From a virus: 33,453 bases of DNA. The notes under the pieces are model-generated. The model saw only the letters and a list, made by a program, of their open reading frames with translations. It was not told the origin of the DNA and ran no database searches. Shown here piece by piece: positions 11,534 to 21,389 of the stretch. Position 1 is the first letter of the stretch. Every line of letters begins with the position of its first letter. Made by a program: the position numbers and the translations under genes. The stretch covers positions 1 through 33,453 of the IMG/VR virus record IMGVR_UViG_3300025674_000189; one strand, given 5' to 3'.

Positions 11534-12751
11534 ATGAAATTAAAACAATTAGATTTATTTAGTGGAATAGGTGGGTTTCATCTTGGCTTTGAAAAAGCTG
11601 GATTTGAAATTGAATCTTATTTCTCAGAAATTGACAAGTATGCAATAGATGTATATAAAAACAACTTTAAAAATAGTAAATATGTCGGATCAGTTACAGA
11701 TGTTCGAGGGAAACAACTCCCCAAAATTGACCTTATCACTTTCGGATCACCTTGCCAAGATTTTAGTTTGGCTGGAAAACGTAGGGGTATGCAAGGAGCT
11801 AGAAGCTCCCTTATTAGTGAAGCAATACGACTCATCGGTGAATGCCGACCGAGTGTTTTTATCTGGGAAAATGTTAAGGGAACATTCTCCTCAAACAATG
11901 GCAACGACTTTTGGGCAATTATCCAAACCTTTGCCAACATTGGGGGTTATAGAATTGAATGGCAACTGCTTAATACAAGTTGGTTTTTACCCCAAAATAG
12001 AGAGAGAATCTACCTTGTTGGATATTCTACAAAACAATGTAGAGGACAAGTATTTCCTATCTCAGAAAACAATAGACAGGTTAATGAAACAAGAGCCAAC
12101 CCAGATTCGCTTACAATCACAACAAGATATGCAGCATTAACAAGTCAAGGAAGTTACATTAATGAATGTAACAAAATTTCACAAGAAAAAATAGAGGTTG
12201 GTACTTGGCGAACATATAAAGACAAAAGGGGTTTTGAACCGAGAACAGATTTAGTATCACCAACAATATCAGCTAGAGCTAGAGAAGATGGTAGCGGCCA
12301 ACCAGTTATTAAAGTTATATCAGGCACAAAAAAAGGTTTTGAAAAAGCTAAACATGGTGATTCAATTAATTTAGCTTTTCCCGGTTCCACTACTAAAAGA
12401 GGTCGAGTTGGTAAAAAACAATCTCAAACACTAGATACAGCTTGTAATATGGGTGTATATACTGATAATAAAAAAGTAACACATAATTGTCTAACCGAAG
12501 CTATTGGTAGGCAAGGAAGTTCTAGTGAATACATTACTAGTTTAAATAAAATAAACGAATCTACTGGTATTATTAGAAGATTAACTCCAATAGAATGTGA
12601 AAGGTTACAGGGTTTTCCAGATGATTGGACAAAAATAGGTTTGGAAAACGGTGAAATATCAGATTCTCAAAGGTATAAAATGTGTGGCAACGCTGTAACT
12701 GTTGATGTAGTTGAATCAATAGCAAAAAAAATTAAATTAAATATATTATGA
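11534..12751 (+). CDS. C5-cytosine DNA methyltransferase (Dcm family)
   Basis: A 405-aa protein with all core motifs: SAM site DLFSGIGGFHLGFEKAG (7-23), catalytic GSPCQ (71-75, Cys74), ENVKG (112-116), QNRERIYLVGY (154-164), RRLTPIECERLQGFPDDW (about 349-366) and GNAVTVDVVESI (about 385-396). The target-recognition region lies between about 190 and 345 and includes ARAREDGSGQPVI. The predicted product is 5-methylcytosine in phage DNA. No restriction enzyme is adjacent. It starts 5 nt after the primase stop, and its TGA overlaps the next ATG. The middle third (about 11690-12060) is noticeably less AT-rich than its neighbours and carries long overlapping frames, suggesting recent transfer. Confidence 0.93.
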   Translation: MKLKQLDLFSGIGGFHLGFEKAGFEIESYFSEIDKYAIDVYKNNFKNSKYVGSVTDVRGKQLPKIDLITFGSPCQDFSLAGKRRGMQGARSSLISEAIRLIGECRPSVFIWENVKGTFSSNNGNDFWAIIQTFANIGGYRIEWQLLNTSWFLPQNRERIYLVGYSTKQCRGQVFPISENNRQVNETRANPDSLTITTRYAALTSQGSYINECNKISQEKIEVGTWRTYKDKRGFEPRTDLVSPTISARAREDGSGQPVIKVISGTKKGFEKAKHGDSINLAFPGSTTKRGRVGKKQSQTLDTACNMGVYTDNKKVTHNCLTEAIGRQGSSSEYITSLNKINESTGIIRRLTPIECERLQGFPDDWTKIGLENGEISDSQRYKMCGNAVTVDVVESIAKKIKLNIL

Positions 12752-13086
12752 ATAAAAAAGAATTTATTGAAACAAGACAATATATCTTAGACAAAGCTCA
12801 GGGTATAATGGATGCTAAGCAACCAGAATACACAAACAAAAGTATTGATGTATTACATAACTTTAAATCAACTGCCGAAAGTATTGGAATAACACCTATG
12901 GAAGTTTGGGCAGTATTTTTTAATAAGCACATACAAGCTATTTTAAGCCATGCTGGTGATCCAAACATGCATCAAGCTGAGCCAATAGATAGTCGCTATG
13001 CAGATGCTTTAAATTATTTATTCTTAGGGTTTGCAATGCTTGTTGATGATTCAAGTAAAAAAGACATAATATCTGGTACAGAATGA
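12748..13086 (+). CDS. DUF1599 / nucleotide-modification-associated domain 1-like protein
   Basis: A 112-aa all-helical protein with KQPEYTNKSIDVLHNFKSTA (about 24-43), an NK-H pair (FNKHIQAIL, about 59-67) and RYADALNYLFLGFAM (about 83-97). This K-x-x-EY, D-x-L-x-NF, KH, R-x-x-D-x-x-NYL pattern is that of DUF1599 (Nmad1), a MazG/phage-modification-associated family. Published genome-context work linked such domains to DNA base modification; their reaction is unknown to me. Coupling by ATGA to the methyltransferase fits. It could also act like a MazG-type nucleotide pyrophosphatase, although no EExxE motif is visible. Confidence 0.65.
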   Translation: MNKKEFIETRQYILDKAQGIMDAKQPEYTNKSIDVLHNFKSTAESIGITPMEVWAVFFNKHIQAILSHAGDPNMHQAEPIDSRYADALNYLFLGFAMLVDDSSKKDIISGTE

Positions 13087-13193
13087 AAAAATTGCATAAT
13101 TTTTTTTTAAAGTTATTAGTGTTAGTTGCATTAATAATTAGTGGATTTGTTATTTTTACTTGTATTGCTTTACTTATAAAACTTTTTATATGA
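13083..13193 (+). CDS. 36-aa single-pass membrane peptide
   Basis: It encodes a short basic start (MKKLHNFFLK) and one hydrophobic helix of about 22 residues (LLVLVALIISGFVIFTCIAL). ATGA overlaps at both ends, with the DUF1599-like gene upstream and the 74-aa gene downstream, make a real translated gene likely. The topology would be N-in. Function unknown; it is far from the lysis cassette, so a holin role is not supported. Confidence 0.55.
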   Translation: MKKLHNFFLKLLVLVALIISGFVIFTCIALLIKLFI

Positions 13194-13414
13194 ATAAATA
13201 TCTAGAAGCTAAATCCTGGTGTTTAGAAAACAATATTAAAATTTATATAGTTCCAATACAATACAAAAAAGAATGTTTTATAGAGATTAATAACAATGGA
13301 AATTTAATTAGATCTCCACATAAATATAAAAATCAAAGTATTGCATCTAGTAAAATTTGGGATTTAAATTTATATTTGTATAATAAACACAGCAAACATG
13401 ATACAGAAAATTAG
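13190..13414 (+). CDS. Hypothetical protein, 74 aa
   Basis: Not recognised. The sequence is rich in Tyr, Asn and Lys (YLEAKSWCLENNIKIYIVPI, ASSKIWDLNLYLY) and looks like a small alpha/beta fold. I start it at 13190, where ATGA overlaps the stop of the membrane peptide; an in-frame Met at 13160 would lie inside that gene. Its 3' end overlaps the ParB-like gene by 17 nt, placing it inside the modification cassette. Confidence 0.55.
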   Translation: MNKYLEAKSWCLENNIKIYIVPIQYKKECFIEINNNGNLIRSPHKYKNQSIASSKIWDLNLYLYNKHSKHDTEN

Positions 13415-13982
13415 CATAAAAAAATTGAAGCCAAATCCTAATAATCCAAGATATATTAGAGATGGCAAGTTTAAAAAATTAGTAAAATCTATTAAAGAAT
13501 TTCCAGAAATGCTTGAAAAGCGACCAATTATAGTTGATGAAAAAATGGTTGTTTTAGGTGGCAATATGAGGTTAAAAGCATGTGAAGCTGCTGGAATAAA
13601 AGAGGTGTGGATTGATACAGCAGAGGGTTGGACAGAAAAACAAAAAAAAGAATTTATAATCAAAGATAATGTAGGTTTCGGTGATTGGGATTTTGATACG
13701 TTAGCTAATGAATGGAATACTGAATTATTAAACGACTGGGGTTTACACTTACCTGAGTTTGATAAAAATCCAGATTATTCTATTTTAGATGATATTGATT
13801 TAGGTGGCGAACTAGATGAAATGACTGGCAATGTTAAAAAAGCATTACAAATACCTTTTGATGCAGAGGATTACCAAAGAGCTTTCGACTTAGTAAAAGA
13901 GTTTAGAGAGAATAAAATATATGTAGGTAAATTATTAATTGAAAAACTAGAAAATGAAAAAAGTAGATTTAAAACAAATTGA
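13398..13982 (+). CDS. ParB/Srx-superfamily protein
   Basis: A 194-aa protein. The first 95 residues form a ParB N-terminal-like domain: ISIKKLKPNPNNPRYIRD (5-22), KRPIIVDEKMVVLGGNMRLK (about 41-60, containing the GGNxR motif that binds CTP or acts catalytically in this fold) and KEVWIDTAEG. The remainder is acidic and helical (DWDFDTLANEW, LDDIDLGGELDEMTG). In Bacteroidota phages such domains are often fused to or encoded beside DNA methyltransferases. Here it lies between the C5-methyltransferase and the dioxygenase and overlaps the latter by 29 nt. It may be a nuclease, a targeting factor or a CTP switch for the modification module; plasmid-type partition is unlikely without ParA. Confidence 0.75.
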   Translation: MIQKISIKKLKPNPNNPRYIRDGKFKKLVKSIKEFPEMLEKRPIIVDEKMVVLGGNMRLKACEAAGIKEVWIDTAEGWTEKQKKEFIIKDNVGFGDWDFDTLANEWNTELLNDWGLHLPEFDKNPDYSILDDIDLGGELDEMTGNVKKALQIPFDAEDYQRAFDLVKEFRENKIYVGKLLIEKLENEKSRFKTN

Positions 13983-14742
13983 ACACAATGTTAAAGTAGG
14001 TGATATATGTGGAACTATAGAACCTAATGTTACAGAAGATAGTATATTTTATTTTGAGGGTGAGCCGATAGGTTTCTATATAGCTGATTTATCAAAAAAT
14101 TATAAAAAAGCTGCTCAACTAGCTGATATTGCAGATAAAGAATTAAGATCTAAAAGAGTACCTAAAAGTGTGATGAAAAGATCAAGTGGGTTTGGTGATG
14201 GCAATGAAGATAAAGAAGTTTTACAATATTCAACAATCATAGGAAGTGTGCCACCCAAACCTCATATGAGGCGACCATATGCTACTATTAGTAGTGTGCA
14301 TAATGTAAAAACAGCACAAACATTTATAAAAGCTATGTTGCTTTTGTGTCTAGAAAGCGAAAAAATAATAAAAGAAATAACACCAAATTTATATAAAGAA
14401 CAAAAAAAGATTATATCAGAAAATGTTAGCAAAAAATGGAGGTTTGGAAACTTATTTACAAGTAGTATTTCAAATTACAATATTCCAGCGCCTTTTCATA
14501 GAGATGCTGCTAACCTAGTAGGATGTGCTAATGTTATCATAGCAAAAAGAAAAAACTCAACTGGTGGTCATACTACTGTACCAGATTATGGTGCTACTGT
14601 AAATAGTGCTGATAACTCAATGCTAGTATATCCAGCGTGGCGAAATGTGCATGGTGTAACGCCAATTATACCAACTTTTGAAGATGGATATAGAAATACT
14701 TTGGTTTTTTACCCTCTAAAAGCATTCAAAGGTATAGAGTAA
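13954..14742 (+). CDS. TET/JBP-like 2OG-Fe(II) dioxygenase
   Basis: A 262-aa protein. The C-terminal part has a complete double-stranded beta-helix set: APFHRDAANLVGCANVII (179-196) with the iron ligands His182-x-Asp184, GGHTTVPDYG (204-213), WRNVHGVTPI (229-238) with the third ligand His233, and GYRNTLVFYP (245-254) with the 2-oxoglutarate-binding Arg247. The HRD in an APxHRDxxN context resembles the TET/JBP branch, which oxidises 5-methylcytosine or thymine in DNA. An N-terminal Arg/Lys-rich region (67-115) could grip DNA. Location in one operon with a C5-methyltransferase supports 5mC as substrate. A different substrate, such as thymine or a protein, cannot be excluded. Confidence 0.72.
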   Translation: MKKVDLKQIEHNVKVGDICGTIEPNVTEDSIFYFEGEPIGFYIADLSKNYKKAAQLADIADKELRSKRVPKSVMKRSSGFGDGNEDKEVLQYSTIIGSVPPKPHMRRPYATISSVHNVKTAQTFIKAMLLLCLESEKIIKEITPNLYKEQKKIISENVSKKWRFGNLFTSSISNYNIPAPFHRDAANLVGCANVIIAKRKNSTGGHTTVPDYGATVNSADNSMLVYPAWRNVHGVTPIIPTFEDGYRNTLVFYPLKAFKGIE

Positions 14743-14764: not shown

Positions 14765-14795
14765 TTTTGTAATTAAAAAAAATCTTTTATATTTG
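14765..14795 (+). promoter_or_regulatory. Strong Bacteroidota promoter (TTTG-N18-TATATTTG)
   Basis: TTTG at 14766-14769, an 18-nt spacer and TATATTTG at 14788-14795 give the full -33/-7 consensus. The 31-bp block is repeated at 21359-21389 with only two differences. It drives the acidic 95-aa gene after a 24-nt leader. Confidence 0.8.
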
Positions 14796-15154: not shown

Positions 15155-15182
15155 AAGGGGGTTTTATAACTCCCTTTTTTTT
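15155..15182 (+). terminator. Intrinsic terminator before terminase
   Basis: AAGGGGGTT (15155-15163) pairs over 9 bp (one G-U) with AACTCCCTT (15168-15176) around loop TTAT, followed by T8. It ends the acidic-protein transcript just before the terminase promoter-like box. Confidence 0.85.
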
Positions 15183-21358: not shown

Positions 21359-21389
21359 TTTTGTAATTAAAAAAAAAGTTTTATATTTG
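21359..21389 (+). promoter_or_regulatory. Strong Bacteroidota promoter (TTTG-N18-TATATTTG), second copy
   Basis: TTTG at 21360-21363, an 18-nt spacer and TATATTTG at 21382-21389. Identical to 14765-14795 at 29 of 31 positions. The ATG of the 65-aa gene follows after only 4 nt, so its mRNA would be nearly leaderless. Confidence 0.8.

Follow-up and report, generated by a model that had tools for sequence, protein, structure and literature searches.

Two adjacent genes of a marine flavobacterial-type phage, coding for a ParB-like protein and a TET/JBP-family dioxygenase, probably constitute a functional unit that would hydroxylate a 5-methylpyrimidine in the phage DNA. Judging from sequence comparisons and structure models, the product would stay undecorated in this phage, and the four other genes of the same run would not be obligate. 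The window, i.e., the whole stretch of DNA analyzed, comprises 33,453 nucleotides (IMG/VR record IMGVR_UViG_3300025674_000189).

The gene run and its surroundings

The six overlapping open reading frames that the original prediction had placed at 11534-14742 are all present there, and they are coupled as it described: the first four genes are joined to one another by ATGA overlaps, and the ParB gene overlaps its upstream neighbor by 17 bases and the dioxygenase gene by 29. The run is not a product of chance, since PF00145 is matched with E=1e-72, Tet_JBP scores above its curated cut-off and relatives of the dioxygenase occur in hundreds of contigs. The features of the region are the following.

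11534..12751, + strand: complete C5-cytosine DNA methyltransferase, 405 aa, Cys74 (PF00145, 1.1e-72; TIGR00675, 1.3e-74)
12748..13086, + strand: 112-aa core gene ("DUF1599-like"; phrog_6802, 7e-16, a family without assigned function)
13083..13193, + strand: 36-aa predicted membrane peptide (no convincing family match in Pfam and PHROG searches)
13190..13414, + strand: 74-aa gene with an ATG start (the mechanical ORF begins at a TTG further up), a core gene of the phage group
13398..13982, + strand: ParB-like protein, 194 aa (N-domain, residues 1-118, with a ParB-CTPase fold; C-terminal tail, residues 126-194)
13773..13982, + strand: the TET-specific ParB tail, a proposed adaptor (identity contrast between tail and N-domain; tail-only matches)
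13954..14742, + strand: TET/JBP-family 2OG-Fe(II) dioxygenase, 262 aa, predicted to hydroxylate 5-methylpyrimidines in DNA (PF12851, phrog_6059, TET2 profile match, AlphaFold model)
14767..14795, + strand: promoter-like site of Bacteroidota type (TTG...TATATTTG), a pattern match only from a pattern scan, 3' of the TET gene and ahead of the next gene
15155..15176, + strand: intrinsic-terminator-like hairpin preceding the small terminase gene

The ParB-TET pair adjoins the terminase genes, at a variable locus. The promoter-like site has a near-copy at 21361, and the three terminator-like hairpins found in the region compare with 2.2 expected in shuffles. A scan of bacterial genomes returned four weakly informative MAG contigs, one of them from Flavobacteriaceae, so the host stays inferred.

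The three small genes between the methyltransferase and the ParB gene had been proposed as new parts of the system, the first of them as a DUF1599/Nmad1-like protein. This label has to be abandoned, as PF07659 gave no match over the whole window at E up to 1. The 112-aa gene is present in 44 of 47 TET-negative and 5 of 15 TET-positive relatives and, by this distribution, probably lies outside the modification module. The 74-aa gene, with no match in Pfam, likewise occurs in TET-negative relatives, and on account of this presence both core genes were rejected as system parts. The 36-aa peptide, found in few relatives, some of them lacking TET (L130, L169), is by its occurrence incidental.

The TET/JBP dioxygenase

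The original prediction of a TET/JBP-like dioxygenase has been borne out by profile searches and by the predicted structure. The protein matches Pfam PF12851 Tet_JBP (2.9e-9; 36.8 bits against a curated cut-off of 34.9) and, in a second profile library, phrog_6059 (1.8e-55), and a profile search started from it reaches human TET2 (4.7e-7), although a single-sequence search against the PDB gave nothing useful. The iron triad HxD...H and the 2OG-binding arginine (H182, D184, H233, and R247) stand in the sequence where they had been reported, as does Cys74 in the GSPCQ motif of the methyltransferase. In the alignment of 59 relatives, these four dioxygenase residues and Y253 never vary, and N187 is kept in 58. 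The AlphaFold model (pLDDT 93.5, pTM 0.90) resembles most TET2 (Z 19.1), NgTET1 (18.6), CcTet (17.3), and CMD1 (16.8), followed by FTO (14.4). By profile and model, the protein is an authentic member of the TET/JBP family with a predicted oxidizing activity, and a protein hydroxylase, the identity that would have spoken against the original prediction, is ruled out by the proximity of TET2 and NgTET1 in the structure comparison. The HRDxxN motif is as in TET2, a 5mC enzyme, and the position of TET2 His1904 is occupied by Leu255.

The structural relative CcTet was crystallized with 6mA DNA, and some relatives of the phage carry an N6_N4 methyltransferase near TET, so N6-methyladenine made by such neighbors, or else RNA, might be considered as the target. 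This is very improbable: the Pfam scan of window ORFs revealed no N6 methyltransferase, and the decorators of the relatives belong to families tied to hydroxymethylpyrimidines in DNA.

The ParB-like protein and its tail

The predicted ParB fold is clear in structure comparison, while the ParB_N match stays below Pfam's own cut-off. The model (pLDDT 84.5) superimposes on the CTPgammaS-bound ParB of Myxococcus xanthus with Z 13.2 and 1.6 Å over 90 residues. Beyond about residue 120 there is no clear structural match, and a short tail takes the position of the HTH and C-terminal dimerization domains of partition ParBs. Box II Arg58 is invariant in the TET-linked ParB set. This conservation, and a fold shared at lower similarity (Z 6-7) with free serine kinase and SbnI, would be in keeping with a pathway enzyme, either a nuclease or a SerK-like ParB/Srx-fold kinase that would phosphorylate the hydroxymethyl group, instead of a targeting adaptor. 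We regard this as unlikely, because the closest structures are CTP-binding ParBs, because the same N-domain precedes Mom, deazaguanine, and N6/N4 methyltransferase genes, none of which needs hydroxyl phosphorylation, and because the CTP hydrolysis residues Q52 and E93 of M. xanthus ParB (mutated in its structures) align with N16 and N56 of the window protein. Nucleotide binding may nevertheless be retained.

With a Mom-linked ParB, the window protein shares 86% identity in the N-domain and 16% in the tail; TET-linked ParBs with a divergent N-domain show the reverse (24% and 45%), and 20 of 20 tail-only matches have TET behind them. By these comparisons, the N-domain is indifferent to the payload and the C-terminal tail tracks TET. 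Every L002-L121 locus with enough upstream sequence on its contig has ParB ahead of TET, and ParB also precedes TET in phages of Rhodococcus, Mycobacterium, Gordonia, Microbacterium, and Arthrobacter. On this comparative evidence, TET has its constant partner in the ParB-like protein and not in the neighboring cytosine methyltransferase. A chance juxtaposition of two functionally unconnected accessory genes beside the terminase hotspot would fit a variable locus that 28 relatives lack altogether; it is nevertheless quite improbable, since flavobacterial-type and actinobacterial phages alike retain the pair and the tail tracks TET even where the N-domain does not.

Exchange of decorators and payloads

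In relatives, the slot between ParB and TET holds an FkbM methyltransferase, a TET-associated glycosyltransferase (TAGT), a P-loop kinase, or an ADDT (amino acid:DNA transferase) with kinase and amidotransferase, and its content has changed about 29 times on the best TET tree. In the window the slot is empty, and no glycosyltransferase or other decorator was found among the ORFs scanned with Pfam, in agreement with the compact system originally described. Sibling phages encode other means of DNA modification behind ParB, namely Mom, 7-deazaguanine genes, an N6/N4 methyltransferase, or a Tet_JBP enzyme of a second type, and in L130 and L144 ParB is fused to an N6/N4 methyltransferase at the same locus. 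A recognized DNA-modification payload is present in 27 of 37 ParB-positive loci, the other 10 having none recognized, vs. 0 of 28 ParB-negative loci. By gene content, the same spot in related phages is a site of many interchangeable DNA-modifying enzymes.

In the mechanism that we favor, the ParB-like protein would bind nucleotide and phage DNA, its tail would bring TET to that DNA, and TET, with 2-oxoglutarate, O2, and Fe(II), would oxidize the methyl of a 5-methylpyrimidine to hydroxymethyl. As the slot holds no glycosyltransferase, kinase, or transferase, the product would be a bare hydroxymethyl base, which might block host restriction. The base would be either thymine, giving 5hmU, or 5mC from the adjacent C5-methyltransferase, giving 5hmC.

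The methyltransferase and the substrate

The C5-methyltransferase is M.HhaI-like by phmmer and matches PF00145 over its full length, with the PC motif, ENV, and QxRxR. Its position is exchangeable: L005 and L013 have an N6_N4 methyltransferase there, and L132 has a compact C5-like enzyme of 217 aa. A C5-methyltransferase accompanies 12 of 67 TET-encoding records, its absence from the others being weak evidence in most cases because viral records are mostly fragments that may be incomplete; none of the 7 complete reference phages has one. Among loci of the window's phage group, the full enzyme is present in 8 of 15 TET-positive vs. 2 of 47 TET-negative ones (p=7e-5), or 9 of 15 vs. 11 of 47 when the compact enzyme is included (p=0.012), in biased sets (TET-positive loci were mostly fetched by TET, TET-negative ones by terminase) of phages that are not independent. 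On this distribution, the methyltransferase is an enriched but dispensable neighbor of the ParB-TET module, since moderate enrichment goes along with absence from most TET-encoding records, and 5mC is a candidate substrate. The original six-gene cytosine cassette is thus supported as a TET within a DNA-modification module, but not as one unit of six genes; the co-occurrence survey that had been suggested found ParB constant with TET, and neither the methyltransferase nor the small genes obligate. CpG depletion (0.39 in the window) was rejected as a 5mC footprint, because TET-negative relatives are equally depleted and some relatives with both TET and methyltransferase are not.

The usual explanation of a phage TET invokes a C5-methyltransferase as its partner. 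Applied here, the methyltransferase would methylate cytosines within its recognition sites, and TET would oxidize the resulting 5mC to 5hmC as characterized phage TETs do, gene order reflecting functional coupling. We consider this possible, although not the leading explanation. The enzyme lies in the same gene run and is enriched among TET-positive loci of the group, HRDxxN is as in TET2, and in a passage citing Burke 2021 (PNAS) phages are described that combine C5-methyltransferase, TET, and glycosyltransferases (PMC12730594). Moreover, in records of at least 20 kb, C5-methyltransferase accompanies 4 of 9 undecorated vs. 1 of 19 decorated TETs (Fisher p=0.026); this tie was not upheld on the TET tree, where only three independent pairs on supported branches, a test of little power, gave no significant association with slot state. 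Against this explanation, L005, a 34-kb record whose TET is 97% identical, has an N6_N4 methyltransferase and no C5-methyltransferase, most TET records and all seven complete reference genomes do without the enzyme, and it occurs without TET in L150 and L202. The 5mC could alternatively come from the host.

For this TET lineage we put thymine slightly ahead; from the genes present, it seems no less likely than 5mC to be the substrate. Thymine is favored by the scarcity of C5-methyltransferase just described and by the lack of any dUMP hydroxymethylase of the thymidylate synthase family (PF00303) in the window and 18 other records, given which TET would have to take over its role in a 5hmU-based route. 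It is also favored by close TETs (L111 beside L025, L026, and L034) that pair with ADDT and kinase genes, and by the comparable gene run of Rhodococcus phage Tonitrus (PMC11955845). The enrichment of the methyltransferase among TET-positive loci of the group favors 5mC here. The HRDxxN motif shared with TET2 counts against thymine. A 5hmU kinase and an aGPT-PPlase/ADDT transferase are absent from the window module and present behind the related TETs L077 and L081.

This widespread lineage, which mostly lacks C5-methyltransferase and has ParB wherever it can be checked, poses a choice between thymine and 5mC that is directly testable, and its closely related TETs with different decorators form a natural series. 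A more tentative proposal is that terminase-adjacent ParB-fold proteins are general nucleotide-binding delivery platforms, in which a conserved N-domain would load on phage DNA and a swappable tail would recruit the following enzyme (TET, the second Tet_JBP type, Mom, deazaguanine transferase, or methyltransferase), and that the TET of this lineage hydroxylates thymine without a methyltransferase, which would be a prokaryotic equivalent of the reaction that initiates base J synthesis. If the tail does plug modification enzymes onto phage DNA, this would explain the ParB-like genes beside phage DNA-modification genes, and the tail could serve as a targeting handle for placing modified bases in chosen DNA.

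Comparison with known systems

Phage TET 5mC dioxygenases reportedly act after C5-methyltransferases (Burke et al. 2021, PNAS). The window enzyme shares with them the TET/JBP fold, the catalytic residues, the phage setting, and a C5-methyltransferase in its genome; it differs in that its lineage mostly lacks this enzyme, in having ParB as the constant partner, and in Leu255 at the TET2 His1904 position. In the JBP/base J pathway there is also a TET/JBP oxygenase, paired in relatives of the window with a TET-associated glycosyltransferase, whereas the window slot has no glycosyltransferase and thymine hydroxylation is here a proposal. In the open-access literature, the only report found on ParB with TET is the announcement of Tonitrus, whose ParB, TET, aGPT-PPlase2, and kinase genes are described, by annotation only, as thymidine hypermodification (PMC11955845). 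In both phages the ParB and TET genes belong to a single run that precedes terminase; the Tonitrus TET is 29% identical, its ParB has another tail, and decorators follow TET, with none in the window. Among mycobacteriophages, in which Cooper gp2 serves as TET/JBP reference (PMC12730594), KayaCho gp1-gp2 has the window anatomy (ParB directly followed by TET, then terminase, with no decorator), although TET identity is about 30% over the aligned part and the ParB tail is dissimilar; KayaCho lacks a C5-methyltransferase. Finally, fusions of a ParB-CTPase-fold protein with an N6/N4 methyltransferase are described from phages (PMC12704722). Their N-domain is of the same family, and such fusions occupy this locus in the siblings L130 and L144; in the window, the enzyme is instead a separate TET gene and the ParB-like protein carries a TET-specific tail.

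Gene Context and Identity of the Dioxygenase

The six open reading frames (encoding a C5-methyltransferase, a 112-aa protein, a 36-aa membrane peptide, a 74-aa protein, a ParB-like protein and a dioxygenase) lie within the 33,453 bases of this IMG/VR virus record where the original prediction had placed them, with ATGA junctions or short overlaps, and all the residues named there are correct in the translated products. Replication initiator and primase/helicase genes are found upstream, and terminase genes, a prohead protease and the capsid downstream. The observed/expected CpG ratio is 0.39 in the window and likewise low (0.2–0.7) in most close relatives; in other relatives it is about 1, irrespective of TET or methyltransferase. 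Two promoter-like sites of Bacteroidota type, almost the same in sequence (TTGTAATTAAAAAAAA..TTTTATATTTG), are present at 14767, directly after the TET gene, and at 21361, after the capsid gene. The early gene run probably ends with TET.

The dioxygenase is a TET/JBP enzyme, as had been proposed, and does not fall outside this family; several lines of evidence agree. It scores 36.8 bits against Pfam Tet_JBP (cut-off 34.9); a profile of 59 phage relatives matches human TET2 in the PDB at 4.7e-7, with HRDxxN and VFY aligned; and H182, D184, H233, R247 and Y253 are invariant in 59/59 of these relatives (N187 in 58/59). The AlphaFold model (pLDDT 93.5, pTM 0.90) is nearest to TET2 (Z 19.1), NgTET1 (18.6), CcTet (17.3) and CMD1 (16.8), FTO coming next after the TET-type structures (14.4). 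At the position of TET2 His1904, which contacts the cytosine, the enzyme carries Leu255, nearly invariant among relatives, which would permit a different base as substrate.

ParB as the Constant Partner of TET

The constant partner of TET is ParB and not the C5-methyltransferase. Throughout the related viral loci L002–L121, a ParB-like gene lies upstream of TET in every contig extending far enough upstream, and the same order is found in complete Rhodococcus, Mycobacterium, Gordonia, Microbacterium and Arthrobacter phages, whose TETs are only 23–29% identical. The partnership originally predicted for the C5-methyltransferase is upheld in part: the gene is enriched among TET-positive loci, but PF00145 occurs in only 12 of 67 TET-encoding records and is absent from all seven complete reference genomes (P-HS2, Tonitrus, KayaCho, CloverMinnie, Matzah, Lilmac1015 and S-CBWM1), which carry the argument since most viral records are fragments, where absence is weak evidence. 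In L005, a TET 97% identical to that of the window is accompanied by an N6_N4 methyltransferase in place of the C5-methyltransferase. Among loci spanning both places, in TET-positive and TET-negative sets fetched with different queries and not independent, a full C5-methyltransferase is present in 8/15 versus 2/47 (p=7e-5), or 9/15 versus 11/47 (p=0.012) when a compact 217-aa C5-like enzyme (PF00145 match, 1.5e-8) is included. Such compact enzymes (about 220 aa, SPPC and ENV motifs) occupy the position of the window's C5-methyltransferase in L132 (1656–2309) and L008 (123–788). The 112-aa and 74-aa genes, also proposed as parts of the system, both occur in TET-negative relatives, and that proposal was not borne out.

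The modelled N-domain of the window ParB resembles the M. xanthus ParB structure with bound CTP (Z 13.2), but Q52 and E93, mutated in the M. xanthus structures, align with Asn16 and Asn56. The domain is predicted to be nucleotide-binding and DNA-associated. The tail (residues 126–194) may be a payload-specific adaptor. The Mom-linked ParB of L132 is 86% identical to the window ParB at residues 1–118 and 16% at the tail. Compared with other TET-linked ParBs, those with divergent N-domains (L002, L063, L075 and L112) average 24% in the N-domain and 45% in the tail, versus 62% and 14% for ParBs of other payloads, and a search with the tail alone retrieved 20 loci, with TET next in 20/20 (including L006 and L007). 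As judged from these alignments, the rule that tail tracks TET holds for the window's TET lineage only, because the two Mom-linked ParBs, from L132 and L190, have dissimilar tails and the TET-linked tails of actinophages differ from the window's.

Modification Systems Behind ParB

The interval from the 74-aa gene to the small terminase varies among close relatives retrieved by their large terminase. Alternatives seen there are ParB with TET; another Tet_JBP of more JBP-like type (4.5e-27), accompanied by amidotransferase, ADDT and kinase; Mom (6e-47); and a fusion of ParB with an N6_N4 methyltransferase. In L195 (178–4009), the genes behind ParB encode a queuine-transferase-like protein, QueC and other proteins of queuosine type, which would make this a 7-deazaguanine DNA-modification set in the place taken elsewhere by ParB-TET. 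In L159 (1889–4195; large terminase 89% identical), ParB precedes genes for an ABC-type ATPase, an acetyltransferase of the GNAT family and a formyltransferase, which together look like an undescribed DNA-modification set. A recognised payload is present in 27/37 ParB-positive loci versus 0/28 ParB-negative loci, one of which, L205, has a 471-aa ORF. ParBs lacking a recognised payload occur in L136, L149, L167, L168, L170, L172–L175 and L177; those read out (L136, L167 and L175) terminate in a CPECG zinc-ribbon-like motif. The second Tet_JBP type, which has an HTDxxD motif and is accompanied by amidotransferase, ADDT and P-loop kinase, was seen in L187, L189, L192, L193 and L194, with no C5-methyltransferase in the three of these checked, and is a candidate for a separate thymine pathway. 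Elsewhere, a Mom-like gene directly follows ParB in Enterococcus phage phiEf11 and Microbacterium phage Appa, ParB lies one gene upstream of it in Arthrobacter phage Shade, and no ParB is annotated at the Mom-like gene of Polaribacter P12002L.

Decorator Slot and Substrate Base

Between ParB and TET lies a slot that is empty in the window and in some relatives. Other relatives have there an FkbM methyltransferase, a glycosyltransferase of the TET-associated family (PF20691), a P-loop kinase, or the amino acid:DNA transferase ADDT (PF18724) along with kinase and amidotransferase. The slot content changes about 29 times on the best tree of 85 TETs, fewer changes being forced when supported branches alone are used; L111, with the ADDT set, is nested in an FkbM group. 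Many different decorators thus appear to draw on a single kind of TET product. The slot of L071, L118 and L119 encodes a protein (about 306 aa in L071) with no Pfam match, possibly a new glycosyltransferase.

ADDT/aGPT-PPlase and kinase enzymes act on 5hmU in phage thymidine hypermodification, and no thymidylate-synthase-family hydroxymethylase was found in the 19 records examined. The authors describing Tonitrus (ParB, TET, aGPT-PPlase2 and kinase) call it a thymidine hypermodification system (PMC11955845). For these reasons thymine is placed on a par with 5mC as the likely substrate base, or slightly before it. ParB would deliver TET to DNA, where, from what is known of the family, TET would hydroxylate a 5-methylpyrimidine, possibly thymine, leaving a bare hydroxymethyl base. 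The expected benefit is phage DNA resistant to restriction, a resistance established for other hypermodified phages.

Relation to Known Systems

The open literature searched holds no account of a swappable slot between ParB and TET, of the payload range behind one ParB at one locus, or of a ParB tail tracking TET. The proximity of ParB to phage TET genes is reported to have been noticed in earlier computational surveys. Phage TETs, a ParB next to TET, and fusions of ParB with methyltransferases are each already known (PMC11955845, PMC12704722, PMC12730594). The Rhodococcus phage Tonitrus has ParB and TET in common with the window, and adds aGPT-PPlase2 and a kinase (PMC11955845).
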